This document shows, piece after piece, positions 10 through 29,773 of a DNA stretch of 33,210 nucleotides (position 1 is the stretch's first letter; each line of letters opens with the position of its first letter). The translations under genes were made by a program, and so were the position numbers. The DNA lies in the IMG/VR virus record IMGVR_UViG_3300031707_000104, positions 1-33,210 of that record. One strand, 5' to 3'. Origin of the DNA: a virus. The notes beneath the pieces were generated by a model. It worked only from the letters and a program-made list of their open reading frames with translations, made no database searches and was not told the origin of the DNA.

Positions 10-606
10 ATGAAGAATAAAAAAGATAAAAAGTGTAAGGATTGTGGGAAAAATGTATCTACAATAAAAACCCAAAGATGTCAAAGATGTTATCATATTT
101 GGGCACAGAAAATTGGGTTAAGAAAAGATAAAAAGAATGGAATGTATAAACATGGAAAATGTAATTTAAAATATTATTGTAAAGATTGTGGTAAGAAAAT
201 TCATTTTACAACAGGTATATATGGGTCGCATAGATGCCCACAATGCCATAGTTCGGAAATGAATAGAAATAGATGGAAAAATATTGAATTTAAAAATAAA
301 ATGAAAATAAAAATTAGTATAAAAGCTAAAAAAAGATTATCAATTCCAGAAAATAATCCTAATTGGAAGGGCGGTATTACATTTACAAAAAGACCTCGCC
401 AAACAACAATTTATTATAATTGGCGTAAAAAAGTATTTGAGAGAGATAACTATACTTGTCAAAAATGTGGAATAAAAGGTGGTAAATTAGAAGCACATCA
501 TAAAAAATCATGGAAGAATTATCCCGAATTGAGATATATTGTCAATAATGGGCAAACGTTATGTATAAAGTGCCATCCAAAAGGTAGACATGGTAAAAAA
601 GATTAG
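10..606 (+). CDS. HNH homing-type endonuclease with zinc fingers
   Basis: Free-standing endonuclease of about 198 residues. Seen: N-terminal CxxC pairs (C9/C12, C24/C27, C57/C60, C76/C79) that look like zinc-binding DNA-recognition fingers; an NPNWKGG element near 117-122, common in phage HNH proteins; a C-terminal HNH domain with C150/C153, H163-H164, an Asn near 179-180 and C185/C188. Such proteins nick or cut DNA at the intron-less or gene-free allele and spread themselves. The start is the first ATG in the window, only 9 bases from its edge and in an open frame with no visible ribosome binding site, so the true start could lie upstream. The 3' end overlaps the amidoligase gene by 17 nt. 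The family is well supported; the target site is unknown. Confidence 0.85.
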   Translation: MKNKKDKKCKDCGKNVSTIKTQRCQRCYHIWAQKIGLRKDKKNGMYKHGKCNLKYYCKDCGKKIHFTTGIYGSHRCPQCHSSEMNRNRWKNIEFKNKMKIKISIKAKKRLSIPENNPNWKGGITFTKRPRQTTIYYNWRKKVFERDNYTCQKCGIKGGKLEAHHKKSWKNYPELRYIVNNGQTLCIKCHPKGRHGKKD

Positions 607-1288
607 TAAATCAAAAAAACAAGAAATTCGGCTTTTTAATATTCATAAACTTAGATGGGCAATCGAGTTAGAGGTCGAGTTTCCTAATTCTAAAGATAGT
701 CAAAAATTAATTGATAGGCATAGAGTATTAGAGGGATGGGACATAGATTATGATGGTTCACTTGAAAATGGAGCTGAGTATCGACCTAAAAATGGTAATC
801 ATCTATATTGGAATGAAGAAAGTTTAACTCAATTAAAAGAAACTTTAGCTTTAATTAGAGTGCATAGAGGAAGGATAAATAAAAATTGTGGGCTTCATAT
901 TCACATTGATGCTAAGATTTTTACTGATAAACAAATTTTAGAAATAGTAAAAGAATTTATTCATAAACAGCGTTACATTGTGAAAAGGTTTGAAGTTCAT
1001 AAAGATAGATTAGAAAATACTTGTAAATTATTACCAAGAGAAAATTTAAATAAATTAACAGAAAAACAAATACATAACTTTAGAAAACAAGAAGAAATGT
1101 GGTCTTATAGTGGTTATGATGCTTTGATGGATGAAAAATATAACGCATTAAATATTAGTCATCTTAGAAAAGGAGATTATGGAACTTTAGAATTTCGACT
1201 TTTTGATGCTACTCTTTCATATAGAAAATTAAAAGAACAGATACAATGGACATTAATATTTATTAAAGATTGCTTGGAGCGAGAATAA
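590..1288 (+). CDS. Amidoligase_2-type ATP-dependent COOH-NH2 ligase
   Basis: Predicted ligase of the glutamine synthetase / gamma-glutamylcysteine synthetase fold (Amidoligase_2). It would form an amide bond between a carboxylate and an amine using ATP. Seen, in order: AIELEVEF (24-31), matching the GxExE strand in which acidic residues bind metal; D55-G-S with GAEYRP (61-66); CGLHIHID (100-107); and YNALNISH followed by GTLEFRLF (184-205). These five blocks in this order are diagnostic. At 232 residues it is a compact single-domain member. It begins inside the upstream HNH gene, and its stop overlaps the next start as TAATG, so it is probably translationally coupled to the carboxypeptidase-like gene. 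Known members are often linked to peptidases or cell-wall/peptide modification. The substrate here is unknown. Confidence 0.8.
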   Translation: MVKKISKSKKQEIRLFNIHKLRWAIELEVEFPNSKDSQKLIDRHRVLEGWDIDYDGSLENGAEYRPKNGNHLYWNEESLTQLKETLALIRVHRGRINKNCGLHIHIDAKIFTDKQILEIVKEFIHKQRYIVKRFEVHKDRLENTCKLLPRENLNKLTEKQIHNFRKQEEMWSYSGYDALMDEKYNALNISHLRKGDYGTLEFRLFDATLSYRKLKEQIQWTLIFIKDCLERE

Positions 1289-2031
1289 TGAAAATAATAA
1301 GGTCATATAATAAATTAATAAATGAAATAATTAATTTGCAAATTCCTTTTAAAATTGAAATTATTGATTATGTGCAATATGATAATTTTATTTATCCTAT
1401 GATAGCTATTAGTCAGATTTCCAAAATGGCAAAGAAAACTTGTGTAATAGTTGGTGGTGCTCATGGAGATGAATATTATGCTGCAAGAATACTTATTAAA
1501 TTTTTGAGTGAAATAAATAAAGATTATTTAGAATACTATAATTTATATATTGTTCCTATCATTAATCCTTTTGGTTATGCTACAGGAAGCAGAAAAAATG
1601 GAATTAGACAAGAAGTGAGTAGTGATTCTGATTTTAAAAGAGATTCGTCAATAAAAGAATTAGCTATACTTTATGAATATATTCCATCTAATATAGATTT
1701 ATTTATTGATGTTCATGGTGATACAGGTAAACATTATTTTTATGCTTATGAAAGTAAACCAGAAGTAATACCTTCAATTTCTGAAAAAGCACTTTTAGAA
1801 AATGATAATATTTTACAATATGAAAGAGTTAATACAATTTATGGAGAAAAAGTAAAAAATGGAGTTATATATAAACCTGAAAAAGATAAAAGTATTGAAG
1901 ATTTTATGGAAAATTTAGGAATAGAATATGTAGTTGCTTTAGAAGTTCCTGGAAAAGCAGAAGGTCAAGTAAGAATGAAAGCTGGAATTGCAATATTACA
2001 TTCATTATTAAAATTTTATAAGGAGGTTTAA
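1288..2031 (+). CDS. M14-type zinc carboxypeptidase / AstE-like hydrolase
   Basis: Zinc hydrolase of the M14 / succinylglutamate desuccinylase-aspartoacylase superfamily, which removes a terminal residue or acyl group from an amide. Seen: zinc ligands in GAHGDE (H59, E62) and DVHGD (H143); substrate-binding NPFGYATGSR with R102; a candidate catalytic Glu in ALEVPGK (E219). At 247 residues it is a bare catalytic domain without signal peptide or transmembrane segment, so it should act in the cytoplasm. An upstream in-frame TTG at 1270 exists, but the ATG at 1288 sits in a TAATG coupling with the amidoligase stop and has GGAG about 9 bases before it, so 1288 is preferred. Pairing with an amide-bond-forming enzyme suggests that one makes and the other trims or removes a gamma- or alpha-linked residue (inference). 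Confidence 0.8.
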   Translation: MKIIRSYNKLINEIINLQIPFKIEIIDYVQYDNFIYPMIAISQISKMAKKTCVIVGGAHGDEYYAARILIKFLSEINKDYLEYYNLYIVPIINPFGYATGSRKNGIRQEVSSDSDFKRDSSIKELAILYEYIPSNIDLFIDVHGDTGKHYFYAYESKPEVIPSISEKALLENDNILQYERVNTIYGEKVKNGVIYKPEKDKSIEDFMENLGIEYVVALEVPGKAEGQVRMKAGIAILHSLLKFYKEV

Positions 2032-2437: not shown

Positions 2438-2445
2438 ACTATGGA
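2426..2445 (+). repeat. Gene-start direct repeat, copy 2
   Basis: Second copy of the gene-start element at 2023-2043, identical except for one missing T. Here the stop codon of the preceding gene is the TAG inside the repeat rather than the TAA used at copy 1, so the same sequence ends two different reading frames. Confidence 0.6.
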
Positions 2446-2686
2446 TATTTATCGTTATTGTAAAGAATGTGAAAGTAATAGAATAACAGGACAAAAATGC
2501 GATACTTGTGGAAAATCAACGGAACAAGGGGAGTTTGTTCCGATTATAATAAATTTTAGTTATGGACACGATTTAGATGGTACTTCTTATGATTTTTGTA
2601 GTTATGAATGTGTACTTAACTTTATTTGGAATGAAATTAAAAAACATAAACCAGATAATTTACTTTATGGAGGAACAAATGTTTAA
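2441..2686 (+). CDS. Small zinc-ribbon protein, 81 aa
   Basis: Unassigned protein with CKEC (7-10) and CDTCG (19-23), and a third cysteine pair in a FCSYEC motif near residue 52. These could form one or two zinc sites of the treble-clef/MYM type. The FCSYEC followed by a helix resembles the C-terminal half of zinc fingers such as TRASH/MYM, in which the helix follows CxxxC. It overlaps the start of the membrane-anchored protease gene by 8 nt and contains that gene's ribosome binding site. Function unknown. Confidence 0.6.
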   Translation: MDIYRYCKECESNRITGQKCDTCGKSTEQGEFVPIIINFSYGHDLDGTSYDFCSYECVLNFIWNEIKKHKPDNLLYGGTNV

Positions 2687-3560
2687 AAAAATCTTAAAGT
2701 ATTGTGTTATTACATTGATAATTGGGGTATCAATTTTTAGTAATGGATATTTTATTGTCAAAAATAATTTAAATATTAAAATGACAATACAATATTTACA
2801 AAATCAAATTGAAGATTTACAAGACCGATACAATCAACTTCTAAATAATGAGATTGAACTCGTTAAAAAGGATATTGTAGTTAAAAATGCAATAGATACT
2901 TTAATTAAATCTAATCAAACAATTGATATTAATTTACTATTAAAAAGTAATGTATTTGTTAGAGGATTTTTTGGTACTGGTGCAGGAACTGTTATTAAAA
3001 AAACAGAAAATAGAATGTATATTTTAACTTGTTATCATGTAGTTGCAGATATTATTAAATTTAATGAAATGGGACTCCCAATGGGAGCTACTGTTGGTTA
3101 TTCTAAAACAGATGAATTAAATACAATTGTAGGAATGATAGCTTATGGTGCAAAAATAATAAAATCTGATAAAGATAAAGATTTAGCTCTTTTAGAAGTT
3201 CGGATAGTAGACAATGAATTAGAAGCCAGACCAATTGCTGAAAATGAACCACAAAAGGGAGATACAGTTTATTCAATAGGAAGTCCTTTAGGTTTATTAA
3301 GAACTATATCTAAAGGTATATTATCTAATAAAGAAGATGGTTTTTATATTTCAGATAATACTACTACTTTTGGAAATTCTGGTGGCGGACTTTTTAATAT
3401 TAAAGGAGAATTAATAGGAGTTCCAAGTAATGTAACAGGTTATAGTGCAGGAACAGATAAAAATGGAGATGAAATTTTTGTTCCTGAAAGTGGATTGGGA
3501 TTAAGTAGGGATTTATCTACGGTTCGTTCTTTTTTAGGAGATTTTTTAAATGAAAAATAA
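2679..3560 (+). CDS. Membrane-anchored trypsin-like (HtrA/DegS-type) serine protease
   Basis: Serine protease of 293 residues in the chymotrypsin/HtrA fold. Seen: one N-terminal transmembrane segment (about 6-27), predicted to place the catalytic domain outside the membrane; a short coiled coil (about 33-65); then the triad H120 in TCYHVV, D168 in DKDLALLEV and S234 in FGNSGGG. YSIGSPLG (198-205) is typical of HtrA proteins. No PDZ domain follows. The frame is open from an ATG at 2577, but that start would lie wholly inside the upstream gene and lacks a ribosome binding site. The ATG at 2679 has GGAGGA about 5 bases upstream and gives a clean signal anchor. Possible roles are cleavage of envelope proteins or of a superinfecting phage's proteins. 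The protease call is strong; the role is inference. Confidence 0.85.
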   Translation: MFKKILKYCVITLIIGVSIFSNGYFIVKNNLNIKMTIQYLQNQIEDLQDRYNQLLNNEIELVKKDIVVKNAIDTLIKSNQTIDINLLLKSNVFVRGFFGTGAGTVIKKTENRMYILTCYHVVADIIKFNEMGLPMGATVGYSKTDELNTIVGMIAYGAKIIKSDKDKDLALLEVRIVDNELEARPIAENEPQKGDTVYSIGSPLGLLRTISKGILSNKEDGFYISDNTTTFGNSGGGLFNIKGELIGVPSNVTGYSAGTDKNGDEIFVPESGLGLSRDLSTVRSFLGDFLNEK

Positions 3561-4134
3561 ACATACCAAGAAAACTAAGCAATTATTGAGTAAAATTATG
3601 AAGAAATATTATAAAAATCATGATAATCCATTCAAAGGAAAGCATCATACTGAAGAATCAAAAAATAAAATTAAACAAAAACGTTTAGGAAAAAAACATA
3701 CAGAAGCAACAAAGAAAAAAATCTCGCAAAATCATAGAGATACAAAAGGTAAAAATAATCCTATGTTCGGAAGAAAAGGAAAATTAAGTCCTACATTTGG
3801 AAGGCATCTTACTTATAAGCAAAAAGAAATATTAAAACTTAAACATAGTAAAGAAAATAAATTGTATACTTCTTCAGGATATATTTTAATTTGGAATTCT
3901 AAAAATAAAATAATAAGAAAACGGGTATTAGAACATAGATTTATTGTTGAACAAATAATTAAAAGAAAATTAAACAAAGGAGAAACTATTCATCATATTA
4001 ATGGAAATAAATTAAATAATATATCTAAAAATCTATATCTATTTAATACAAGATATGCTCATAATTTATATACTAAATTATCTAAATTACAACCAGAAAT
4101 AGTATTAAAATCTAATTTAGAGGATATAAAATAA
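3550..4134 (+). CDS. NUMOD3 / HNH homing endonuclease
   Basis: Free-standing homing endonuclease of 194 residues. The N-terminal half carries NUMOD3-type DNA-binding repeats (HTEESKNKIKQKRLGKKH near 33-50, then NPMFGRKG and SPTFGRH near 70-86). The C-terminal half carries an HNH_3-type core: EHRFIVEQ, HHINGNKLNN (148-157), and a helix ending in the nuclease-specific LYLFNTRYAHN. It overlaps the protease gene by 11 nt, and its stop is coupled as TAATG to the next gene, so it is inserted without disturbing neighbouring frames. Confidence 0.85.
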   Translation: MKNKHTKKTKQLLSKIMKKYYKNHDNPFKGKHHTEESKNKIKQKRLGKKHTEATKKKISQNHRDTKGKNNPMFGRKGKLSPTFGRHLTYKQKEILKLKHSKENKLYTSSGYILIWNSKNKIIRKRVLEHRFIVEQIIKRKLNKGETIHHINGNKLNNISKNLYLFNTRYAHNLYTKLSKLQPEIVLKSNLEDIK

Positions 4135-4736
4135 TGTGCCATATACCAAACTATAAGTATATAACTTATCTTATCGGGGCAATGGAAAAAACTGCTGAAA
4201 AAGACGATGGTTCAGAGAAACGAGCCAAAGTTGAAGAAGAATTAATTTTAAGAAATGTTTATCCTATTAATCCAGTAAAATTAGAAGCAACAAAAACAGG
4301 ATTATCAACTGATGAAATAAAAGAAAAAATGACAGGATGGGTTGCTTCTGGTAATTGGGAATTATTTGAAGAAAGGTCTAAAGAAATTTGGCAAGGCAAA
4401 GATAATCTTTCTGAAAAAGGAGAATTAATACATACTCCAGGCGATATAGATTATTGTTTAATGAGTGATTGGCTTACTTTTAAATATAATAAAGGCGATA
4501 TGCCCTGTGGAAGTTTTGCAGAATGTGGTATAGCAATGGAACATAAAATTCCAATTTATTTAATTACAGATTTAGCAAAAAAAGATTTGCCTAAAAGTTT
4601 ATTACAAATGATTTTAATTACAAAAGGAGAAGTATTTAATACTTTACCACAATATCTGGATTTTATTGATAGCAAATATAAATTACATAGAAAAGAACCA
4701 AAAATAGAAGAAAAGAAAGAAGAAGAAAAGAAATGA
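4134..4736 (+). CDS. Nucleoside 2-deoxyribosyltransferase-like protein
   Basis: Probable member of the nucleoside 2-deoxyribosyltransferase superfamily, whose members swap or hydrolyse the base on 2'-deoxynucleosides or deoxynucleotides. Seen: an N-terminal strand with YLIGAME (11-17), matching the family's Y-x-x-G-P start; DIDYCLMSDWLTFKY near 104-118, with the conserved Asp pair; and CGSFAECGIAMEHKIPIYLI (125-144), matching the GT-x-x-E-x-G-x-A block that carries the catalytic Glu. A long helical insertion lies between these blocks, and the last 15 residues are a charged Lys/Glu tail. It sits directly upstream of a dGTP/dATP diphosphohydrolase-type gene and SSB, so a role in the nucleotide pool or modified-base supply is plausible. 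Remote similarity only; the exact reaction is uncertain. Confidence 0.6.
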   Translation: MCHIPNYKYITYLIGAMEKTAEKDDGSEKRAKVEEELILRNVYPINPVKLEATKTGLSTDEIKEKMTGWVASGNWELFEERSKEIWQGKDNLSEKGELIHTPGDIDYCLMSDWLTFKYNKGDMPCGSFAECGIAMEHKIPIYLITDLAKKDLPKSLLQMILITKGEVFNTLPQYLDFIDSKYKLHRKEPKIEEKKEEEKK

Positions 4737-7158: not shown

Positions 7159-7686
7159 ATGAAAACTAAAATTTGTTGTCATTGTAAAAATAAAAAGTCT
7201 CTTAAAGAATTTAATAAAAATAAAAGTATATTAGATAAACATAGAAGCGAATGTAAAGAGTGTAGTAAGATTTATAGACAAACAGAAAATTATCAAATTT
7301 CTAAAGAAAAATATCGGAAATCAATTAAATGGAAAATAACTCATAGAAATTATTCTCAATCTGCTATAGGAATTTATAATATGTTAAAATTTAGAGTAAA
7401 TAAAACAGGAAATAGATTTAGTCTAAAATTAACAGATTTTATAAAATGGTATAATAAACAAAAAAGAATTTGTGTGTATTGTAAACGAACAGAGAAGGAA
7501 TGTATCAAAGATTATAATAATAAATTTAAAAGATTAACTATAGATAGAAAAAATAATGATTTAAGTTATTACTTAAATAATATAGTATTATGTTGTTATA
7601 GATGTAATACAATTAAAGGAAATACTTTTATATATAATCAAATGTTAAAAATCGGAAAAATAATTAAAAATAACCTATCAAAATAA
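7159..7686 (+). CDS. HNH endonuclease, free-standing
   Basis: A 175-residue HNH protein. The N-terminus has a zinc finger formed by C6/C9 and C32/C35 (CCHC, CKEC). The middle is a basic helical DNA-binding section. The C-terminal nuclease has CVYC (105-108), LTIDRKNN (126-133) with Asp-Arg in place of Asp-His, an Asn near 140-141, and CCYRCN (145-150). The D-R variant of the first motif occurs in several phage HNH enzymes. It lies between the 5' nuclease/zinc-protein group and the OB-fold gene. Confidence 0.8.
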   Translation: MKTKICCHCKNKKSLKEFNKNKSILDKHRSECKECSKIYRQTENYQISKEKYRKSIKWKITHRNYSQSAIGIYNMLKFRVNKTGNRFSLKLTDFIKWYNKQKRICVYCKRTEKECIKDYNNKFKRLTIDRKNNDLSYYLNNIVLCCYRCNTIKGNTFIYNQMLKIGKIIKNNLSK

Positions 7687-8255: not shown

Positions 8256-8951
8256 ATGAACCATAAATCAAAATTTTATTCTAAATGGTTAAGAAAACAA
8301 TTAATTAAATCTAAATTATATAATTTTTATATAATTAAGAAATGGTCAATTGCGAATATTGCTCATTATTTTAATTGTAGTAGATTTCCTATTACAAAAG
8401 CATTAAAAAAATATAAAATAAAAATTCGTAATACAGGAGAAGGTGCTCGAAAATATGGAAATCTATTAACTAAAGATATTCTTGTATATGAATATTATAA
8501 AAATAATTTATCTCTTAAAGAAATTGCCGATAAATATGGGATTTCTTCTGCTAAAAGGATACTATTTTATTTTAAAATTTATAAGATTCCAAGAAGAAGT
8601 CAACCTTTAGGAACTAAGATTAGATTTAATAAACAAGATTTAAAAGAAAGATTTTCTAAAATGAGAAAAGGAAAACTTCATTGGAATTTTAATAATTGGA
8701 GTAGTAGAAAACCATATAGTAAAAAATGGTCTTTGGAATTGAAAAATAGTATACGAGAAAGAGATAAATATATTTGTGCAGTTTGTAATAAGTATGGCAA
8801 TGAAGTACATCATATTAATTATGATAAAAAAGATTGTTCTTTCAATAATCTTATTACTTTATGTAAATCTTGTCATACTAAAACAGGATATAATAGACTA
8901 TTTTGGGAATTAATATTTAATATGAAAATTAAACTAAAGAGGGATATATAG
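8256..8951 (+). CDS. HNH endonuclease with two helix-turn-helix motifs
   Basis: A 231-residue protein. It has two N-terminal helix-turn-helix units of the homeodomain/sigma-like type (about 26-52, SIANIAHYFNCSRFPITKAL, and about 83-108, SLKEIADKYGISSAKRIL), then an HNH domain: C174/C177, EVHHINYDKKD (184-194), N198 and C203/C206. The order HTH-HTH-HNH is common in phage homing endonucleases. The start has no good Shine-Dalgarno, which suggests low expression. It is inserted directly upstream of the primase-helicase gene, whose ATG follows its stop without a gap. Confidence 0.85.
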   Translation: MNHKSKFYSKWLRKQLIKSKLYNFYIIKKWSIANIAHYFNCSRFPITKALKKYKIKIRNTGEGARKYGNLLTKDILVYEYYKNNLSLKEIADKYGISSAKRILFYFKIYKIPRRSQPLGTKIRFNKQDLKERFSKMRKGKLHWNFNNWSSRKPYSKKWSLELKNSIRERDKYICAVCNKYGNEVHHINYDKKDCSFNNLITLCKSCHTKTGYNRLFWELIFNMKIKLKRDI

Positions 8952-11887: not shown

Positions 11888-12121
11888 AAAAACTATAAAT
11901 ATCCTAAAACTAAAAAATTAATTAAACAATTAAAACCCTACAGTGAAAAATATTCCAAAATAGCCAATAAATTTTGGAAAGATGTATATAAATTAGAACA
12001 AATAATGGAAAAAGTAACAGGAATTAAAGGAATCGAATTTTATCATTGTGATGGAGAAATTGCAGGAATTGGAAATGCAGATAGAAGCATGTCTTTAATT
12101 CATTGGAGAGAATTGGAATGA
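11885..12121 (+). CDS. Hypothetical protein, 78 aa
   Basis: Small basic protein, helical in the first 45 residues (KKLIKQLKPYSEKYSKIANK, then FWKDVYKLEQIMEK) and strand-like after that (IEFYHCDGEIAGIGN). No family recognised and no membrane segment. The stop overlaps the following HNH gene as ATGA. Confidence 0.55.
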   Translation: MKNYKYPKTKKLIKQLKPYSEKYSKIANKFWKDVYKLEQIMEKVTGIKGIEFYHCDGEIAGIGNADRSMSLIHWRELE

Positions 12122-12717
12122 AACACAAAATAAATTGTAAGTGTCCATTTTGTAAAGCAAAAAGAGGAGAATTAAAAGGTAAGAATCATCCAAAATTCAA
12201 AGAAAAACATAAATGTATAGACTGTGGAAAAAATACTTGTAGAAGAAAGAGCAAACGATGTTGGAATTGTTATATTAAATGGAGTCAGATACCAAAAAAT
12301 AATGGTAATTTTAAAGGTGGAAAACCCAAGTGCAAATGTGGTAAACCATTGAGTAGATATAAAGTTAAACAATGTCAGGAATGTTATATTAAAGAATTAA
12401 ATGCTAATCAAAGAGGCGAAAATCATCCTAATTGGCAAGAAGGAATTAGTAAACTACCTTATGCTTTTGAATTTACTCAAGAATTAAAAGAATCTATTCG
12501 TAAACGTGATAATTATACCTGCCAAAATTGTGGAATGACTGAAGAAGAACACCTTATAGTAACAGGTAGAGTTTTGCATATTCATCATATTGATTATAAT
12601 AAAAAGAACTGCAAAGAAGATAATTTAATTACATTATGTCAGGGGTGTAATTCTAAAGTAAATTTTAATCGGGATTACTGGTATGCTTATTTTAAATATA
12701 TAATGGAGGAGGAATAA
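12118..12717 (+). CDS. HNH endonuclease with multiple zinc fingers
   Basis: A 199-residue protein. Several CxxC pairs in the first 90 residues (C7/C9/C12, C33/C36, C48/C51, C72/C74, C86/C89) form zinc fingers, followed by ENHPNW (101-106) and an HNH domain with C135/C138, HIHHIDYNKKN (154-164), N169 and C174/C177. The tail FNRDYWYAYFKYIM is almost identical to that of the HNH gene at 22154-22747, so the two are paralogues. The ATG at 12118 (ATGA overlap) is preferred over an in-frame TTG at 12103. Its last codons supply GGAGGAGG for the next gene. It lies upstream of the recombinase gene. Confidence 0.85.
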   Translation: MKHKINCKCPFCKAKRGELKGKNHPKFKEKHKCIDCGKNTCRRKSKRCWNCYIKWSQIPKNNGNFKGGKPKCKCGKPLSRYKVKQCQECYIKELNANQRGENHPNWQEGISKLPYAFEFTQELKESIRKRDNYTCQNCGMTEEEHLIVTGRVLHIHHIDYNKKNCKEDNLITLCQGCNSKVNFNRDYWYAYFKYIMEEE

Positions 12718-21520: not shown

Positions 21521-22153
21521 ATGATTAGAAAAGAATTTCCTACAAGACAAGAAGTAGATAGTTACCTAACAGAACAACGAAATAGGCAAGAGAAAGGGTA
21601 TCTCACTAGGTCAGAACGAGAAGAACTAAAACAATTATTAGAACATCCCGAAACTTTAATTAAAAAAGAAGTTTCTAAAGGAAAATCTATTATTACTAAT
21701 ATTATAGAATTACGAAAACCATGTTTGGTTGTAGAAAAAAATGAAGATATAAACCAGATTATTCAAGATTTAAAAGATACATTAAATACTTTTTCCAATC
21801 AAGCCTATGGTTTAGCAGCTAATCAAATAGGATATAATAAATCAATATGTTATCTTAGAATCCCTAAAATAAACGAAAAAACAAAACAAGTAGAATATGA
21901 GGAATTTGCAGCAATTAATCCTAAAGTTTTAGAAAAAGAAAGAAAAATAATTTTTAAACAAGAAGGTTGCCTTAGTTTTAGAGGATTAAGAATTGATACA
22001 GATAGATACGTATTTTGTGTTATTCAATATGAAAATGAAAAAAGAGAAATACAAAATGTAATAACACAAGATTTAGCTGCATTTATTTGGCAGCACGAAA
22101 TAGGTCATTTACAAGGAAAAACTATATTAGATTTTAAACACAAAGGAAGATAA
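21521..22153 (+). CDS. def: Peptide deformylase, phage type with N-terminal extension
   Basis: Removes the formyl group from nascent bacterial proteins. Seen: motif 1 YGLAANQIG (96-104), motif 2 EGCLSF (148-153) with metal ligand C150, and motif 3 QHEIGHLQG (191-199) with H192, E193 and H196. The usual Asp of HExDH is Gly, which also occurs in phage versions. About 60 residues of charged helix precede the catalytic domain. At 210 residues it is longer than host Def because of that extension. It implies a bacterial host and may speed maturation of phage proteins or photosystem/other host proteins. AGGAG binding site. Confidence 0.88.
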   Translation: MIRKEFPTRQEVDSYLTEQRNRQEKGYLTRSEREELKQLLEHPETLIKKEVSKGKSIITNIIELRKPCLVVEKNEDINQIIQDLKDTLNTFSNQAYGLAANQIGYNKSICYLRIPKINEKTKQVEYEEFAAINPKVLEKERKIIFKQEGCLSFRGLRIDTDRYVFCVIQYENEKREIQNVITQDLAAFIWQHEIGHLQGKTILDFKHKGR

Positions 22154-22747
22154 ATGAAAAAATGTTTAATTTGTAAAACCTTAATTTGGGAACGGTCTAC
22201 TTATTGTAAAAAACACGATACTATAAATAGACGCTCTTATAAAGGAATCAACAATCCTAATTATAAAAATGGTAATTCTATTATTAAACATTATTGTCAA
22301 GATTGTAGAAAAGATATAACTCAAAATGCTAAACGATGTAAATTATGTAATCAAAAATATCTATATCCTAAAGGTAGAAAATATTCTAAATGTATCAACT
22401 GTGGCGAAACTACAAAAAGTTATAGAGCTAAAAGATGTGATAAATGTAATGCTATTTATTTAGGTATCAAATTTAGAGGAAAAAATCATCCTTGTTATAT
22501 CGATGGTCAAGGAGATAGTCCTTATACTTTAGAATTTAAATATATTAGAAAAGAAATTTTAATTAGAGATAAATACATTTGTCAAGTATGTAATAAACAA
22601 GGTACTCATGTACATCATATTGATTATAATAAACAGAATTGTGATAAAAATAATTTAATAAGTACTTGTAGTGTTTGCAATTTAAGAGCTAATTTTAATC
22701 GTGATTATTGGTATGCTTGTTTTAAATATATAATGAGGAACAAATGA
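22154..22747 (+). CDS. HNH endonuclease, paralogue of the 12118 gene
   Basis: A 197-residue protein with CxxC pairs (C4/C7, C48/C51, C62/C65, C80/C83, C95/C98) as zinc fingers, NNPNYKNG (33-40), and an HNH domain: C143/C146, HVHHIDYNKQN (152-162), N166/N167 and C172/C175. The ending FNRDYWYACFKYIM closely matches the other HNH gene at DNA level too, suggesting a fairly recent duplication or spread. It lies with no gap after the deformylase gene, and its stop overlaps the M50 protease start (ATGA). Confidence 0.85.
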   Translation: MKKCLICKTLIWERSTYCKKHDTINRRSYKGINNPNYKNGNSIIKHYCQDCRKDITQNAKRCKLCNQKYLYPKGRKYSKCINCGETTKSYRAKRCDKCNAIYLGIKFRGKNHPCYIDGQGDSPYTLEFKYIRKEILIRDKYICQVCNKQGTHVHHIDYNKQNCDKNNLISTCSVCNLRANFNRDYWYACFKYIMRNK

Positions 22748-23319
22748 TGGTATTGTTTTCAATAAGTTTAATAATAAGTATTTTGATACATGAAGCAGGT
22801 CATGCTATTGCTGCAAAATTATGTAACTGTGGAATAACAGAAATAGCAATTGGATTTGGAAAACCTTTATTTAAGAAAAAAATTGGAAATACTGTTTATC
22901 AAATTTGTCCAATATTGTTGGGAGGGTATGTTAAACTTAAAGATGAATTAATAATTAGTAAAGACCCACATGCATTTACTAATTTACCCTATCATAAAAA
23001 ATTTGCTATAACCGTAGCTGGAGTTATTGTTAATATATTAATGGGATTGATTTCTTTGTATTTAGGTAAAATAATTCTTAACTATCAATTATTTTATTTT
23101 GGCTATTTGAGTTTAATATTAGGAATAACTAATCTTCTTCCTATACCTGCATTTGATGGAAGTTATATTTTTTTAGTATGGTTAGAAAAATTTTTTGGAA
23201 AAGAAAAGGGTTATCGAATTATGGAAAAAGTGTGTAGAATAGGATTTATTACTATTATGATTATAAATATACTATGTTTGCCTTTATTAATTTATTATGT
23301 TAAAACAGGAGTTTTATAA
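22744..23319 (+). CDS. M50 intramembrane metalloprotease (SpoIVFB/RseP-like, no PDZ)
   Basis: Site-2-protease-type membrane zinc protease of 191 residues. Seen: HEAGH (16-20) in the first transmembrane helix; ICPILLGGYVKLKDE (54-68), the membrane re-entrant loop motif; NLLPIPAFDGS (130-140), the third zinc ligand Asp138 in the N-x-x-P-x-x-x-DG motif; about four hydrophobic helices. The PDZ domain of RseP and the CBS domain of SpoIVFB are absent, leaving a minimal catalytic unit. All zinc ligands are present, so it should be active. The two leading ATG codons are adjacent; the first forms the ATGA overlap. TAATG-coupled with the next membrane protein. Confidence 0.85.
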   Translation: MMVLFSISLIISILIHEAGHAIAAKLCNCGITEIAIGFGKPLFKKKIGNTVYQICPILLGGYVKLKDELIISKDPHAFTNLPYHKKFAITVAGVIVNILMGLISLYLGKIILNYQLFYFGYLSLILGITNLLPIPAFDGSYIFLVWLEKFFGKEKGYRIMEKVCRIGFITIMIINILCLPLLIYYVKTGVL

Positions 23320-23861
23320 TGAAAAAAATTAAATTAATTATTACCAATATTTATGCTTCTATTCTTCCTATTATTTGTGGTTTTTTAGGTGCTTTTGGTG
23401 GAGCAACTGGAGGCAATAAAGCAGCAAGAAGATATTTAATACCTTTATTAATTACAGGATTAGCTTACATGCAAACAGAAAGTATTTTAGTTTTAACTAT
23501 TTTAAGTATTATTGGATGGTTTTCTTTAGGATATGGAATTCCTGGAAATGAAGATGAAGGTTCCGCATTAGGTAGATTTTACTATAATTTATTTAATCGA
23601 AATCATTTTTTAGCGGATATTTTTACAAGAGGAACTATAGGATTATTAGTTACTCTTTCTCTTATTTCAATTCCAATAATTAAACATAATTGGTTTATAT
23701 ACATTTTATGTGGATTAGGAATTTGTAGTGTATATTCTTTTATTAGTTGGCGTAATTTAAGTCAATATAAATTATTTAAAATACAATTAAATTGGTCAGA
23801 AACTTTAACCTATGGGCTAATAACTTTACTTGCAGTTCTTATTATTAAAATAGGAGGATAA
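23319..23861 (+). CDS. Polytopic membrane protein next to the M50 protease
   Basis: A 180-residue protein with about five hydrophobic helices (about 9-29, 40-56, 56-72, 105-121, 160-178). The loop between the third and fourth is notable: GIPGNEDEGSALGR (73-86), with acidic and Gly residues. GGATGGNKAARRYLIP (27-42) follows the first helix. I do not recognise the family. Coupling by TAATG to the M50 protease suggests a functional partner, substrate or chaperone. Confidence 0.65.
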   Translation: MKKIKLIITNIYASILPIICGFLGAFGGATGGNKAARRYLIPLLITGLAYMQTESILVLTILSIIGWFSLGYGIPGNEDEGSALGRFYYNLFNRNHFLADIFTRGTIGLLVTLSLISIPIIKHNWFIYILCGLGICSVYSFISWRNLSQYKLFKIQLNWSETLTYGLITLLAVLIIKIGG

Positions 23862-23862
23862 A

Positions 23863-24420
23863 GTGAAGAAGAAAATCTCAAGAAAAAGAAAATTTGAACC
23901 AGAATTAAAAGTAGATGATATTTTATTAAAAAATCGTAAATTATTTTTATATGGAGAAATTAGTTCTTTAACTATTCAACCAATAGTTAAAAGTTTAATA
24001 GCATTAAATATTTTAAACACTGAACCAATTTATTTATTTATAAATAGTCCTGGTGGTAGTGTAAGTGATGGTTTTGCTTTAGTTGATACTATTAAATCAT
24101 TAAAAACTCCTGTCTATACTGTTATTATAGGAGAGGCTTGTTCTATGGGTGGATTGATTTCTATTGTAGGAGATGAACGTCTCATGACTAAAAATAGTTT
24201 TTTTATGGCACATGATATGCGTGGTGGTATTCATGGAGATTATTCTGGTAAGGTAGAATATAGAGCTGATTTTATTAAGAAATGTTGGAAGATGATAGAA
24301 GACCATTTAAAAACTTATACAAAATTAACAACACAAGATTTAGTAATTTTGCGTAATGGAGAATTATGGTTAACTCCTCAAGAATGTTTAAATAAAAGTG
24401 TTATAGATAGGATAATTTAA
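23863..24420 (+). CDS. ClpP-like serine protease, copy 1
   Basis: A 185-residue ClpP-fold protein. Seen: INSPGGSVSDG (60-70), nucleophile GEACSMGG with S94, catalytic-type MAHD with H117, and a C-terminal block RNGELWLTPQE. In ClpP the third triad member is an Asp in the equivalent of that last block (ERDRFLSAPEA); by alignment on the Ala/Thr-Pro it is Gly166 here. About 20 residues of basic N-terminal extension replace the axial-loop propeptide. No Clp ATPase is encoded in the window, so it would need a host ClpX/ClpC or act alone. GTG start with AGGAGG signal. Confidence 0.8.
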   Translation: MKKKISRKRKFEPELKVDDILLKNRKLFLYGEISSLTIQPIVKSLIALNILNTEPIYLFINSPGGSVSDGFALVDTIKSLKTPVYTVIIGEACSMGGLISIVGDERLMTKNSFFMAHDMRGGIHGDYSGKVEYRADFIKKCWKMIEDHLKTYTKLTTQDLVILRNGELWLTPQECLNKSVIDRII

Positions 24421-24423
24421 ATT

Positions 24424-24810
24424 ATGTCAATTATAAATAAATTAAAAATTTTAGCTGATAATAATAAAAAAGGCTATCCTTTTTCTGCTTGTATTGAATA
24501 TCAAGGTAGATATTATTATGCAGTTAATGAAGTAACTTCTAAAAAAGACCCTACAGCTCATGCAGAAGTTCAAGCAATAAGATTGGCTTGTAAAAAAGAA
24601 AAAACCTTTAATTTAAATGGGGGTAAAATTTATTCTTCGGGGTCTCCATGCCCCATGTGCCTCACTGCAATTGCTTGGGCAGAAATTAAAGAGGTATATT
24701 ATATTAATCCTTATTATGTAGCATTATCTAATAATTATTATTATGATAGACCTTCTGAAGATGTAAATGAATTTTTAAATTTGAAAAGAATAATTAAACA
24801 AATAAAATGA
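24424..24810 (+). CDS. Cytidine/guanine-type deaminase
   Basis: Zinc deaminase of 128 residues of the CDA superfamily. Seen: DPTAHAEVQAIRLACK (42-57), whose HAE gives the zinc ligand and proton-shuttling Glu, and SPCPMCLTAIAWAEI (74-88), the PCxxC zinc pair. The DPTAHAEV-x-AIR-x-ACK pattern is that of guanine deaminase (GuaD) and close relatives rather than dCMP deaminase. The aromatic C-terminus NPYYVALSNNYYYDRP and ending EDVNEFL also recall GuaD. The likely substrate is guanine or a related purine/pterin. Next to a BT1/MFS transporter gene. Confidence 0.8.
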   Translation: MSIINKLKILADNNKKGYPFSACIEYQGRYYYAVNEVTSKKDPTAHAEVQAIRLACKKEKTFNLNGGKIYSSGSPCPMCLTAIAWAEIKEVYYINPYYVALSNNYYYDRPSEDVNEFLNLKRIIKQIK

Positions 24811-24998
24811 ACCTAAAAGAATATTTAAAAATAAAAATTAAACCCGACACTCAACTAGATTTAGAATTAATTTATCAAGAATTAAGAAATTTGGGTCATC
24901 CTTATATTGATATTTATTGTACTATTAATGAAATTATTATTGAAAATATAAACAAAATATTAGAAGATTACTATAAAAAGAAAAATGAAAATCAATAA
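24807..24998 (+). CDS. Small helical protein, 63 aa
   Basis: ATGA overlap with the deaminase and a 14-nt overlap with the transporter. Product helical and acidic/Ile-rich (LDLELIYQELRNLGHPYIDI, then IENINKILEDYYKK), no membrane segment. No family recognised. Could be a regulatory partner of either neighbour, unproven. Confidence 0.55.
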   Translation: MNLKEYLKIKIKPDTQLDLELIYQELRNLGHPYIDIYCTINEIIIENINKILEDYYKKKNENQ

Positions 24999-26253
24999 AA
25001 AATTATTTTGGATTTATCTACTCTCAGGAGCCATCTATTTTACACAAGGCGTGGAAGGCTTACCTGGACTTAGTTTATTTTTATATCTTAAAGAAAAATT
25101 AGGATTTACTCCAGAAAAAATGATGTTAATTGCATCGATTACTGGAATAGCATGGATTATTAAACCTATCTTTGGCTATCTAATTGATAATTATCTTACT
25201 AAAAAGAAATGGATTGTTTTGTCTCTTTTAGGAAGTATAGGAATTGCTTTATTTATGGGATTAAATCCCATTTTAACTATACCAATCCTTATCCTTACTG
25301 GAATTATAGGAAATTATAATTCAGCTAGTAGAGATGTCGCAACAGATGGAATAATGTGCGTAGAGGGCAAGGAGACCGATAATTGTGATAAAATTCAGGC
25401 TATACAATGGACTTCTATTACTATTGCTTCTATTTTAGTAGGATTGGGTGGAGGATACATTGCAGAACATTTCTCTTATAAAGTAGGATATTTGTGTCTT
25501 ATTCCTATTTATTTACTTATCTTAGGAATTGTATTAAATTATAGAACAGTTGTATCAAAAAATAAAATAAAAGAAGATTCTTGTAATTATTGTAAATTTA
25601 GAATAGATTGTGGGGGAGATGAAAATAATATTTGTCAAGAATTTGAGCCTTTAGTAAAAAAGGTTAGTATTTTAAAAACTATTTATTCATATAAAGAACT
25701 ATTCCAAAATAAACAATTTTTATTAGCATGTTTATTTTTATTTCTTTATAAGTATTCTCCTAGTTTTGGAACCCCTTTAGCTTTTATTGAAAGAGATATT
25801 TTTAAATGGTCTGCTCAATGGCTAGGAACATTAGGAGCAATTATATCTTGTTTTGAAATTCTAGGAGCTATTATATTTTTTAAATTTTGTAAATCAATTA
25901 ATATTAAACGATGGTTGTATATTTCAGTATTTTTAGGAGCTTGTACTACATTATCCTATCTCTATTTTACACCAGTAACTGCTATAGTTTATGGAATTAT
26001 TTATGCTATTATGGGAATGGGAATTCATTTAATAGTAATGTCCTGGATGGCTAAATCAACCTTATCAGGTAAAGAAGCAACATCTTTTGCCTTACTTTGT
26101 TCAATTAATAATTTAGCTGCAGGAACTGCATCTAGTTTAAGTGGAGCATTTTTATTACCTTTAGTAGGATTAAAATTTTTAATAGTTATTTCTGCTTTTA
26201 CTAGTTTTTTGTGTTTACCTATTATTAAAAAATTGGAGATAAAAAATGGATAA
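24985..26253 (+). CDS. BT1-family (folate/biopterin-type) MFS transporter
   Basis: A 422-residue inner-membrane transporter with about 12 hydrophobic helices. Seen: AIYFTQGVEGLPGLSLFLYL (16-35), IAWIIKPIFGYLIDNYL (55-71, the loop 2-3 motif with Asp68), and NSASRDVATDGI (112-123), the signature shared by BT1 folate-biopterin transporters. The central cytoplasmic loop carries C200, C203, C209 and C217 (CNYC then C-x7-C), as if to bind a metal or iron-sulfur cluster. BT1 proteins are known from cyanobacteria, plants, trypanosomatids and some bacteria. A phage-borne complete transporter of this type is unusual. The substrate cannot be read from sequence. Confidence 0.8.
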   Translation: MKINKKLFWIYLLSGAIYFTQGVEGLPGLSLFLYLKEKLGFTPEKMMLIASITGIAWIIKPIFGYLIDNYLTKKKWIVLSLLGSIGIALFMGLNPILTIPILILTGIIGNYNSASRDVATDGIMCVEGKETDNCDKIQAIQWTSITIASILVGLGGGYIAEHFSYKVGYLCLIPIYLLILGIVLNYRTVVSKNKIKEDSCNYCKFRIDCGGDENNICQEFEPLVKKVSILKTIYSYKELFQNKQFLLACLFLFLYKYSPSFGTPLAFIERDIFKWSAQWLGTLGAIISCFEILGAIIFFKFCKSINIKRWLYISVFLGACTTLSYLYFTPVTAIVYGIIYAIMGMGIHLIVMSWMAKSTLSGKEATSFALLCSINNLAAGTASSLSGAFLLPLVGLKFLIVISAFTSFLCLPIIKKLEIKNG

Positions 26254-26893
26254 ATCATTTTTAGAAAAATTTAAAGAAGAAACTAAAGAAGAAATTTCTA
26301 AACTAAATTATAAAAAATATTTTTATCAATTTAGTGAAATAGAAAAAATTAAATTAGTTAAAGAAATGAAAGATATTGAAGTATTTTTTAAAGATGAATT
26401 AGAATTAGATGTTTATCCTATCTACGGTACCTTACTAGGAATGGTAAGGGATGATGATTTTATTGGTTGGGATACCGATGTTGACATGGCTTATTTAAGT
26501 AAATGCAACACAAATAAAGCAGTATTAAATGAATTTAATATGATTTGTAAATTTTTAGAAGAAAAAAAATTATTACTTACTAGAATAAAAACTGCTAGTC
26601 ATTTACACGTGTGGTCTCCAAATAAAGGATTAAGAATTGATTTGTGGATTTCTTGGATGGATAATAAAGGTAAATATCATTTAGTGTGGACTATCAGTGG
26701 AGAAATGGACTCTTCTATAATTTTACCATTTAAAACTATTCAATTTAAAAATTATACATTTCTTCAAATAAATAATCCAGAACAATATTTAAATGAGGCT
26801 TATCATAATTGGAGGATTCCTTTGAGTGGAACAGAAACTGTATGGAAAAAGAAACCTTTTGTATTTGAACTTGAACCCTGGCATGGAAAATAA
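26246..26893 (+). CDS. LicD-family phosphotransferase / nucleotidyltransferase-like
   Basis: A 215-residue LicD/fukutin-type protein. Seen: YPIYGTLLGMVRDDDFIGWD (57-76), DTDVDMAY (76-83) with the metal-binding acids, and LRIDLWISW (129-137) with the third Asp (D132). The family moves phosphocholine or a phospho-alcohol from CDP-linked or similar donors to sugars of teichoic acid or glycans. It is compact, without membrane segments. It overlaps the transporter gene by 8 nt. A TagD-like cytidylyltransferase gene lies 2.4 kb downstream, so the donor could be made by the phage itself. Confidence 0.8.
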   Translation: MDKSFLEKFKEETKEEISKLNYKKYFYQFSEIEKIKLVKEMKDIEVFFKDELELDVYPIYGTLLGMVRDDDFIGWDTDVDMAYLSKCNTNKAVLNEFNMICKFLEEKKLLLTRIKTASHLHVWSPNKGLRIDLWISWMDNKGKYHLVWTISGEMDSSIILPFKTIQFKNYTFLQINNPEQYLNEAYHNWRIPLSGTETVWKKKPFVFELEPWHGK

Positions 26894-26903
26894 AGGAGGA
26901 AAA

Positions 26904-27545
26904 ATGAATAAATTTTATCGAGATAATGAAGATGAAGAAATAACAGAACAAGAAGAAACTATCAGTAAAAAAGAAGAAAAATATACTGAAGAATTTTATT
27001 TTAGAATTCTTAACCATCATAGGTATATTTTGCTTTACGATGTAATTAATAATGTATCTGCAGATGTAGTAGTTTCTAAATTAATTGCTATGAATATTTT
27101 AAACAAAAAAGAACCTATTTATCTAGAAATAAACAGTCCAGGTGGGTCTGTTTCTGATGGTATTTCTATTATTAATGCAATAGAAAAAATAGAAGCTCCT
27201 GTAATTACAGTAATATCTGGGCAAGCATGTAGTATGGCTGCTTTAATCAGTATTGTAGGAGATAGAAGGTATATTTATCATAATTCTTATTGGATGCAGC
27301 ACAGTACTGCAGATGTAGTTGGAGATTATATTCAATATATTAAAGATAGAGTTAGGTTTTTGGGAGAGTTTGAAGCTCGTACAGAAAGAATTTTAAGAGA
27401 AAAAACAAAATTAACTAAAATGGATTTACATAAAATTAGAAGTGGTGAACTTTGGGTAAATGCTGAACAATCATTACTTAAAGGTATAGTAGATAAAATA
27501 ATTCAACCCAAATCTAAAAAGAAAATAATTAAAAGTTCTTTTTAA
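26904..27545 (+). CDS. ClpP-like serine protease, copy 2
   Basis: A 213-residue ClpP-fold protein and paralogue of the 23863 gene, sharing NSPGGSVSDG and the GELW-end block. Seen: EINSPGGSVSDG (75-86), QACSMAA with S110, YWMQHS with H133, and KIRSGELWVNAEQ near 178-190, in which the usual triad Asp is Gly (aligned), as in copy 1. A charged N-terminal extension (residues 1-30, Glu/Lys-rich) precedes the fold. The ATG at 26904 has AAAGGAGG and is preferred over an in-frame ATG at 26826 inside the LicD gene. Copies 1 and 2 could form a mixed ring, as in some chloroplast and actinobacterial ClpP systems. Confidence 0.8.
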   Translation: MNKFYRDNEDEEITEQEETISKKEEKYTEEFYFRILNHHRYILLYDVINNVSADVVVSKLIAMNILNKKEPIYLEINSPGGSVSDGISIINAIEKIEAPVITVISGQACSMAALISIVGDRRYIYHNSYWMQHSTADVVGDYIQYIKDRVRFLGEFEARTERILREKTKLTKMDLHKIRSGELWVNAEQSLLKGIVDKIIQPKSKKKIIKSSF

Positions 27546-27554
27546 AGGAAATTT

Positions 27555-28091
27555 ATGGATATTTATTTCGTATCTGATTTTCATCTCGGTCATTTTAATA
27601 TAATACGTTATACAAATAGACCCTTCTCTGCTTTAGAAGAAATGGATTCCGTTATAATTAGAAAATTTAATGAACGAGTAAAAGAAGATGATTTAGTTTT
27701 CTTTTTGGGAGATTTCTGCATGAAAACTTCATCTGAAGCAAAAGAAGCTCCTAAAAATGCTTTTGAATATTATCGTAGTCAATTAATATGTAAAAATATT
27801 ATATTTATTCGTGGAAATCATGATAATAATAATTCTACCAAAACTCCAATAGAATCTATTGTTATCAATCATGGAGGGGAACGGATTTATTTAACCCATA
27901 ATCCTAAGTATGCCAAAAAAGATTTTCATTTAAATTTCTGTGGACATGTTCATGATAAATGGAAATTCCAAAAAATAGACAGAAATTCTTATATAGTTAA
28001 TCTTTCAGTAGAAAATTGGGATTATTATCCTATTACTTTTAATGAAATTAATCAACATTTTTCTATTTGGAGAAAATCAGGAGAAAAATGA
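27555..28091 (+). CDS. Metallophosphoesterase, calcineurin-like
   Basis: Two-metal phosphoesterase of 178 residues. Seen: SDFHLGH (7-13) with D8 and H10; LGDF (51-54); RGNHD (86-90); LTHNP (113-117); CGHVHDKW (129-136). All five motifs are intact, unlike the SbcD-like protein. Small stand-alone phage members act on phosphodiesters or phosphomonoesters, and the substrate is unknown. Lying between the ClpP-like and SDR genes in the wall/lipid block, it could hydrolyse a nucleotide-linked intermediate. AAAGGAA binding site; ATGA overlap with the next gene. Confidence 0.8.
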   Translation: MDIYFVSDFHLGHFNIIRYTNRPFSALEEMDSVIIRKFNERVKEDDLVFFLGDFCMKTSSEAKEAPKNAFEYYRSQLICKNIIFIRGNHDNNNSTKTPIESIVINHGGERIYLTHNPKYAKKDFHLNFCGHVHDKWKFQKIDRNSYIVNLSVENWDYYPITFNEINQHFSIWRKSGEK

Positions 28092-28825
28092 AAGCATTAA
28101 TTACAGGAAGTACAAAAGGTATAGGAAAACAAATAGGTATAGATTTATTAGATAAAGATTATTTTGTTTATTTTAATGGACATACACAAGAATCTACAAA
28201 AAAATTAGAAAAAGAAATTTCTTATAGAGATTGTGATACAGATTATCTTCCTACGTTTAATATTGTTTGTCAGGATTTATCTACTATAGAATCCAATATT
28301 AGTTTAGGAAATTATTTTAAAGAAAATAATAAGTATTTAGATGTATTGGTTCTTAATTTAGGTATAACAGATAGAACTCCTTTTGGAGAAATTAAACCTT
28401 CTGAATGGAATAAAGTATTAGAAACTAATTTATCTGGAGCGTTTTTCTTAATTCAATCTTTAAAAGATAACATAAATGAAAATGGAAAAATAATATTTAT
28501 AAGTTCTATTTCTGGATGCACTACAGATTCAACTTCTATTGCTTATGGAGTCTCAAAAGGAGCAATCCATATTTTGGTACCTTATCTTGCTAAAGAATTT
28601 GCTGATAAGAAGATTACAGTAAATGCTGTAGCACCTGGATATATAGTAACAGAATGGCATAAAGACAAATCTAAGGCACAACTCAAGAGAATAGAAAAGA
28701 AATGTCTTGCTAATAGATTAGGTATTCCAGAAGAGGTTTCTAAGGTAGTTTTGGCGATTATTGATAATGATTTTATTAATGCTCAAATCATAAGAGTAGA
28801 TGGAGGTTTCGGATGCAAATTATAG
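28088..28825 (+). CDS. Short-chain dehydrogenase/reductase
   Basis: NAD(P)-dependent oxidoreductase of 245 residues. Seen: TGSTKGIGK (6-14), the dinucleotide-binding Gly motif; LNLG (89-92) in place of NNAG; N114; SSISG (139-143) with the catalytic Ser; YGVSK (153-157); and NAVAPGYIVTEW (179-190). Closest in style to 3-oxoacyl-ACP reductase (FabG) and alditol dehydrogenases, but substrate specificity cannot be told. Complete and likely active. ATG at 28088 with AGGAG signal is preferred over an upstream in-frame start at 28067. Overlaps the next gene by 13 nt. Confidence 0.85.
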   Translation: MKALITGSTKGIGKQIGIDLLDKDYFVYFNGHTQESTKKLEKEISYRDCDTDYLPTFNIVCQDLSTIESNISLGNYFKENNKYLDVLVLNLGITDRTPFGEIKPSEWNKVLETNLSGAFFLIQSLKDNINENGKIIFISSISGCTTDSTSIAYGVSKGAIHILVPYLAKEFADKKITVNAVAPGYIVTEWHKDKSKAQLKRIEKKCLANRLGIPEEVSKVVLAIIDNDFINAQIIRVDGGFGCKL

Positions 28826-29319
28826 AATTTAATCCCAAATTATTAGAAGATTTTTTTAATATTAAAGTTAGAGAAGCATGTAAAAGTTGTAAAAGATTTG
28901 GAAAAAAAGTCACCTGTCCTCCTTATATAGATTCTATTGATTACTATAAAAATCTTTTACCTTATTATCGGTATGGAGTATTAATTATAGAAAAATTTTT
29001 AATAAAAGACTATACCATGTCTACTTGGCAAGAATTAGGTGCTTATTCTAGCAAAATTATTCATAATCAATTATTAGAAGAAAGAAATAAATTATTAGAA
29101 AGAGGGATTTTTTCCATTATATTTGGGGCAGGGTCTTGTAAATTCTGTTCAGAAATTTGTACATTTCCATGTAAACATCCTGAAAAATCTGTAGTGCCTA
29201 TTGAAGCAACAGGGTTAGATGTTATAGGTTTAGTTTATGAATTAACAAAAATAGAACTAAAATTTCCTGTAGAAAACCAAGGATTTTTTTATAGAATAGG
29301 AATGATGCTTTATGATTAA
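28813..29319 (+). CDS. DUF2284-like cysteine-rich metal protein
   Basis: A 168-residue protein matching from memory the DUF2284 predicted metal-binding family: C23-x-x-C26 and C35-PP at the N-terminus, then GAGSCKFC (106-112), C116 and C120 near the C-terminus, and a conserved EATGLDVIGL (132-141). Seven cysteines suggest an iron-sulfur or zinc site. The family is typical of anaerobes and methanogens, and its activity is not established. It overlaps both neighbours (13 and 8 nt). A role with the SDR is possible by co-transcription only. Confidence 0.7.
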   Translation: MQIIEFNPKLLEDFFNIKVREACKSCKRFGKKVTCPPYIDSIDYYKNLLPYYRYGVLIIEKFLIKDYTMSTWQELGAYSSKIIHNQLLEERNKLLERGIFSIIFGAGSCKFCSEICTFPCKHPEKSVVPIEATGLDVIGLVYELTKIELKFPVENQGFFYRIGMMLYD

Positions 29320-29773
29320 CAAAAAAATAATCTATACTAGCGGAACTTATGACCTTTTTCATTTTGGACATTTAAATATTCTTCTTAAAGCCAAAGCATT
29401 AGGAGATTATTTAATTGTAGGAGTTTCTACTGATTCTCTTATTACAAAATACAAAGGAATAAAACCAATTATTTCTTATAAAGATAGAGTAACTATTATT
29501 GAACAATTAAAATGTGTAGATAAAGTAATCAAACAAGATAAGTTTTTTGACATAAAACAATTAAAAAAATATAAGATTTCAACAATTGTATTAGGAGATG
29601 ATTGGAAGGATAAATCTTTTCCTGAATTAGAAAAATGCCTTAAAAAGTTAAATATTAAAATGATTTATGTACCATATACTAAAAGACTATCAACATCTAA
29701 AATAAAAGAAACAATAATTCGTAATGCTGTAGAAATTATTGAAGCCCAAACTAAGCGAATAAAAAAACTTTAA
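29312..29773 (+). CDS. tagD: Glycerol-3-phosphate cytidylyltransferase-like (TagD family)
   Basis: Nucleotidyltransferase of 153 residues. Seen: GTYDLFHFGH (11-20) containing the H-x-G-H catalytic pair, VGVSTDSL (37-43), LGDDWKDK (94-101), and YTKRLSTSKIK (122-132), matching the R-x-x-x-S-T-T/S end. These fit TagD, which makes CDP-glycerol from CTP and glycerol-3-phosphate. Length slightly exceeds the usual 129-132 residues because of a C-terminal helix. Together with the LicD-like gene it could provide a donor and a transfer step for decorating host wall polymers. Substrate may be another phospho-alcohol. ATG lies just before the preceding stop. Confidence 0.8.
   Translation: MINKKIIYTSGTYDLFHFGHLNILLKAKALGDYLIVGVSTDSLITKYKGIKPIISYKDRVTIIEQLKCVDKVIKQDKFFDIKQLKKYKISTIVLGDDWKDKSFPELEKCLKKLNIKMIYVPYTKRLSTSKIKETIIRNAVEIIEAQTKRIKKL

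Follow-up and report, generated by a model that had tools for sequence, protein, structure and literature searches.

A predicted amidoligase and a predicted M14-type zinc hydrolase encoded together in a phage clade

The window, meaning the whole 33,210-nucleotide stretch of DNA analysed here, is a 33-kb phage fragment with PolB, Prim-Pol, RecA, SbcC/D-like and head-maturation-protease-like genes. The two genes under study lie near one end, in the following arrangement:

10..606, + strand: HNH homing-type endonuclease ORF (PF01844, E 3.1e-7)
590..1288, + strand: Amidoligase_2 gene (232 aa ORF)
1286..1290, + strand: TAATG stop/start junction (amidoligase stop TAA at 1286-1288, one base shared with the following start)
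1288..2031, + strand: predicted M14-fold zinc amidohydrolase gene (247 aa ORF, ATG at 1288-1290)
2441..2686, + strand: gene for a small Cys-rich (zinc-ribbon-like) protein, syntenic in relatives (DZR_2, E 0.005, below the cut-off)
2679..3560, + strand: Trypsin_2-like protease gene with an apparent N-terminal membrane anchor (PF13365, E 2e-19)

Both genes and the TAATG junction are located exactly where the original prediction had placed them. We rejected the one-base overlap as a sign of special coupling: the same spacing occurs in 8 of the 47 neighbouring plus-strand pairs of the window, so it is ordinary in this DNA and says nothing special about the amidoligase and the M14 gene. Upstream, the HNH ORF overlaps the amidoligase start by 17 bases and is probably a mobile neighbour that does not belong to the amidoligase-M14 cassette. 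HNH or homing-endonuclease-like ORFs are scattered through the window (10-606, 3550-4134, 7159-7686, 8256-8951, 12103-12717 and 22154-22747), the first assigned by profile and the others judged by eye. The window also has a host-like gene run at 21521-29773 with peptide deformylase, an M50 protease, two ClpP-like proteases, cytidine deaminase, a BT1/MFS transporter, LicD, SDR, DUF2284 and cytidylyltransferase genes. Screening with PADLOC matched neither the amidoligase nor the M14 protein to a known defence system.

The product of 590-1288 matched PF12224 with an E-value of 5e-22 (79.4 bits against a cut-off of 22), and, in line with the Amidoligase_2 motifs previously claimed for it, WAIELEVEF, CGLHIHI and GTLEFRLF are all present and contain the family invariants. 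Alignments of 79 sequences (the window protein with 78 viral relatives) and of 28 sequences showed that it retains E26, E28, D55, E63, C100, G101, H103, H105, N188, E201 and R203, although the invariance of CGLHIHI partly reflects how the sequences were selected, because the search pattern itself used this motif. An AlphaFold2 model built from the 28-sequence alignment reached a mean pLDDT of 87.5 and a pTM of 0.85. Foldseek found no match to this model below E 0.001, and the sequence had no credible match among PDB sequences. When the Foldseek candidates were realigned, glutamine synthetases scored Z 12.6-11 over ~180 residues (8fbp: Z 12.6, 180 residues, rmsd 3.1) and YbdK scored Z 11.6. Taken together, these fold matches, the PF12224 hit and the retained residues make it very probable that the gene encodes a carboxylate-amine ligase, as predicted from sequence and model. 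All eight of the close-clade amidoligases that were aligned end in Glu-Arg-Glu (ERE).

The adjacent protein had been proposed to be an M14-type zinc hydrolase resembling a carboxypeptidase. It matched PF00246 at residues 45-104 (E 9e-8, 32.5 bits against a cut-off of 21.6) and AstE_AspA PF24827 (E 2.3e-6, 27.7 bits against a cut-off of 25; 22.4-33.7 bits for four matching relatives). NF052223, a Shewanella N-acetylornithine deacetylase family, aligned over most of its length with E 1.5e-14, at 53.8 bits and thus under the 400-bit equivalog cut-off. PDB matches were 3b2y, 2qvp, 3ieh and 4oko, and sequence, Foldseek and Z scores of 23.8-22.5 all placed three Shewanella proteins and Francisella REP34 as the nearest solved structures. 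The model, built from six sequences, was weaker than that of the amidoligase (pLDDT 71.9) and has a carboxypeptidase fold, with Z 23.8 to 2qvp, 22.5 to 4oko and 20.2 to carboxypeptidase B (1z5r).

The metal site is intact: the zinc ligands H59, E62 and H143, the Arg127-like R102 and the catalytic Glu270-like E219 are kept in 7/7 phage homologues, so that, with the complete set of amidoligase invariants, the catalytic and metal residues expected of both enzymes are retained. Arg145 is the carboxypeptidase clamp for the terminal carboxylate. Its equivalent is absent from all seven phage M14 proteins, which have a non-Arg second residue at the Asn-Arg pair defined by the Shewanella proteins and REP34; this replacement rests on sequence alignment, because the model has low confidence in the loop that holds the site (residues 107-114). 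Of the carboxypeptidase-like assignment, the M14 fold and metal site stand, but the missing Arg145 equivalent speaks against ordinary trimming of C-terminal amino acids; the protein appears closer to an acyl-amino-acid amidohydrolase. The likeness to NF052223 does not imply an arginine-pathway role for the phage protein. In Shewanella oneidensis, the acetylornithine deacetylase has been reported to be SO3749 (PMC5764234). Judging from the NCBIfam name, SO3749 and the solved Shewanella proteins would be members of one family.

Purifying selection acts on both genes: NG86 dN/dS ranges over 0.16-0.36 in the amidoligase and 0.18-0.72 in the M14 gene, with dS near saturation. The nearest relatives share 76% amino acid identity for the amidoligase and 52% for the M14 protein, and this divergence combined with the dN/dS values indicates that neither ORF is a chance frame.

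A conserved gene neighbourhood in related phages, the other expectation raised by the original prediction, was found in four lineages: the window, L011, L094/L095 (the same as L157/L158) and L156. The two genes are directly adjacent in the window and overlap in L156, where the M14 protein is 40% identical to that of the window. In L011 (97 kb) an HNH-like gene lies between amidoligase and M14, and in L094/L157 this position is held by a Phage_endo_I-like endonuclease. Downstream of the pair, all four lineages have the small Cys-rich gene followed by the Trypsin_2 protease; the former lies at 10005-10235 in L011 and 8841-9044 in L094, between M14 and Trypsin_2. Trypsin_2 orthologues in L011, L094, L156 and L192/L193 mark the syntenic site. 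In L192/L193 that site is empty: neither amidoligase nor M14 is present between an upstream small membrane-protein gene and downstream Cys-rich (5531-5767 in L192), Trypsin_2 and nucleoside-deoxyribosyltransferase-like genes, and these phages have an amidoligase of their own sited elsewhere. The strongest sign that the two genes act as a single unit is this joint absence, seen in one empty-site lineage. In L156 (10523-12142) and L192 (6882-8489), the orthologues of the nucleoside-deoxyribosyltransferase-like gene at window 4134-4736 look intein-bearing.

To determine how general the pairing is, we surveyed the flanks of 165 amidoligase loci (55 bacterial, 15 close-clade and 95 other viral). 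M14 relatives within 5 kb occurred in the close clade only, with none near the 55 bacterial or the 95 other viral amidoligases. Class-II glutamine amidotransferases were near 27/55 bacterial and 28/95 other viral amidoligases and gamma-glutamyl cyclotransferases (GGCT) near 5/55 and 8/95, figures that are lower bounds because flank length varied and one or two queries were used per partner. Profiles built from phage M14 proteins matched only L011 and L094 among 47 amidoligase records and, in a second search, L156 alone among twelve close-clade records. A PF00246 search of 78 viral amidoligase records gave zero matches and missed the real M14 gene of L011, so its result was discarded. Single-sequence searches of viral contigs recovered a single relative of the amidoligase and none of the M14 protein, indicating that alignments were needed, and a pattern query for M14 relatives in genome contigs found none. 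More distant M14 relatives of 22-26% identity (L096-L100) had no amidoligase match in their records; with LR756501 included, this was the case for 5/6 such records. In the huge phage LR756501.1 (735 kb), an amidoligase-like and an M14 protein are encoded at ~241 kb and ~549 kb, ~300 kb apart. The amidoligase-M14 pairing is confined to the phage clade of the window, and the broader expectation that Amidoligase_2 genes generally sit near peptidases did not extend to M14 neighbours of this type beyond it.

Even within the clade, most amidoligases have no M14 gene in the record. The L012 amidoligase groups with that of L011 (support 100/98), inside the M14-linked set, and these two observations suggest that the ligase does not need M14. 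Its surroundings vary, with gene calls in close relatives made mostly by eye: glycosyltransferase-like genes in L012, L013, L014, L015 and L159, replication genes in L016 and L160, SbcC/D-like genes in L161 and a deformylase/M50/MFS cluster in L162. In L011, L094, L012 and L014 the amidoligase has endonuclease genes beside it (L094 by profile, the rest by eye), and in L164 (6900-8564) and L165 a LAGLIDADG intein lies in the amidoligase directly after CGLHIH. Between the L156 (7962-8681) and L157 (7938-8636) amidoligases, identity drops from 94% over the first half to 62% over the second, a pattern that suggests recombination near codon 120. Homing elements may help the amidoligase to move.

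We propose, with middling confidence, that the two proteins form an amide-bond cassette of the host cytosol, and that M14 takes the place which other partner enzymes hold beside phage amidoligases elsewhere. Within this proposal the enzyme classes are well supported and a shared pathway is moderately supported. The ligase would use ATP to form an acyl-phosphate on a carboxylate, probably of glutamyl type, and then join it to an amine, while the M14 protein would hydrolyse an amide in the same pathway. M14 might free an amine or acyl group for the ligase, as its closest annotated relatives deacylate N-acetylornithine, or it might remove what the ligase adds. No signal peptide was seen by eye on the amidoligase and none was evident on the M14 protein, so the substrate is probably cytosolic: a small molecule, peptide or cell-wall precursor. 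The earlier idea of adding and trimming a group, whether a peptide or a wall precursor is the target, is a plausible hypothesis. A more specific form, in which the ligase would couple an amine or amino acid onto a host carboxylate and the clamp-less M14 enzyme would erase the mark or prepare the acceptor, strikes us as quite doubtful; if true, it would amount to reversible amide tagging during infection.

The two genes could also have separate functions and be together only through inherited gene order, which we consider somewhat unlikely. The linkage could be inherited synteny, as the Trypsin_2 and Cys-rich genes beside the pair are equally conserved, and amidoligase occurs without M14 in most relatives just as M14 occurs without amidoligase elsewhere. 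However, the pair survives both large divergence, down to the 40% identity of the L156 M14 protein, and endonuclease insertions, and both genes are missing together at the L192/L193 site. A shared role in peptidoglycan-precursor remodelling, which would be one specific version of the amide-bond cassette, is unlikely in our judgement. In that scheme the ligase would cap a carboxylate, that of D-Glu or mDAP, on a stem peptide or nucleotide precursor and M14 would cut a stem amide, so that superinfection or rival lysins are blocked. Published work has described phage amidoligase cassettes as modules for peptidoglycan modification (PMC5498523, PMC11945000), but that role, cited from earlier predictions, is itself a prediction, and searches of the window and its 77-97 kb relatives found no GATase, COOH-NH2 ligase or GGCT such as the published modules contain. 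The murein amidase MpaA does have an M14 fold and appears weakly in our searches (5hxd at E 0.77; PRK10602 at 11.2 bits), although this likeness is far under the 157-bit cut-off.

The glycosyltransferase-like genes around the amidoligase in five relatives, together with a PIG-L deacetylase in L015, would fit modification of a surface glycan, with the ligase amidating a uronic or amino sugar acid and M14 as an accessory. We regard this as highly improbable, as no glycosyltransferase was seen beside the pair in the window or the three M14-bearing relatives, and the ligase is found in at least four different contexts, which makes its position a weak guide to function.

A cytosolic amide-bond cassette remains the reading that we carry forward, and in the literature examined no tested reaction has been assigned to any phage amidoligase. 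Phage amidoligases are widespread, and the two-gene form with a zinc amidohydrolase is minimal. Natural relatives with and without M14 make this a tractable system for learning what amidoligases modify.

Among characterized folds, the window amidoligase shares with glutamine synthetase and YbdK ligases the overall fold and an acidic ExE strand, but identity is ~8-16% and only the catalytic part of glutamine synthetase is covered. The M14 protein shares the fold (Z ~23.5 over ~233 residues, 20-21% identity) and metal site of the Shewanella metallopeptidases 2qvp, 3b2y and 3ieh, whereas the phage proteins lack the Arg145 equivalent and the NF052223 score stays far from that family's cut-off. As a gene set, the closest parallels are the phiEco32/LUZ24-type cassettes, which combine amidoligase with GATase, COOH-NH2 ligase, ATP-grasp and GGCT. 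Both are phage-encoded, include an Amidoligase_2 domain and group it with other amide-chemistry enzymes. In contrast to these cassettes, the window fragment and the L011, L094 and L156 records, where positive controls matched, gave no match to GATase_6, COOH-NH2_lig or GGACT; M14 is the partner instead. One phage ATP-grasp query found no such ligase within 5 kb of the M14-linked amidoligases. Gut-phage pairs of amidoligase and gamma-glutamyl cyclotransferase (MT837293.1, L006) similarly place an amide-breaking enzyme directly after the amidoligase, but that partner has a different chemistry and is not a zinc hydrolase. M14 may fill the role that a glutamine amidotransferase or gamma-glutamyl cyclotransferase has beside other phage amidoligases, and the best reading of the pair is as a variant of these known phage amidoligase cassettes.
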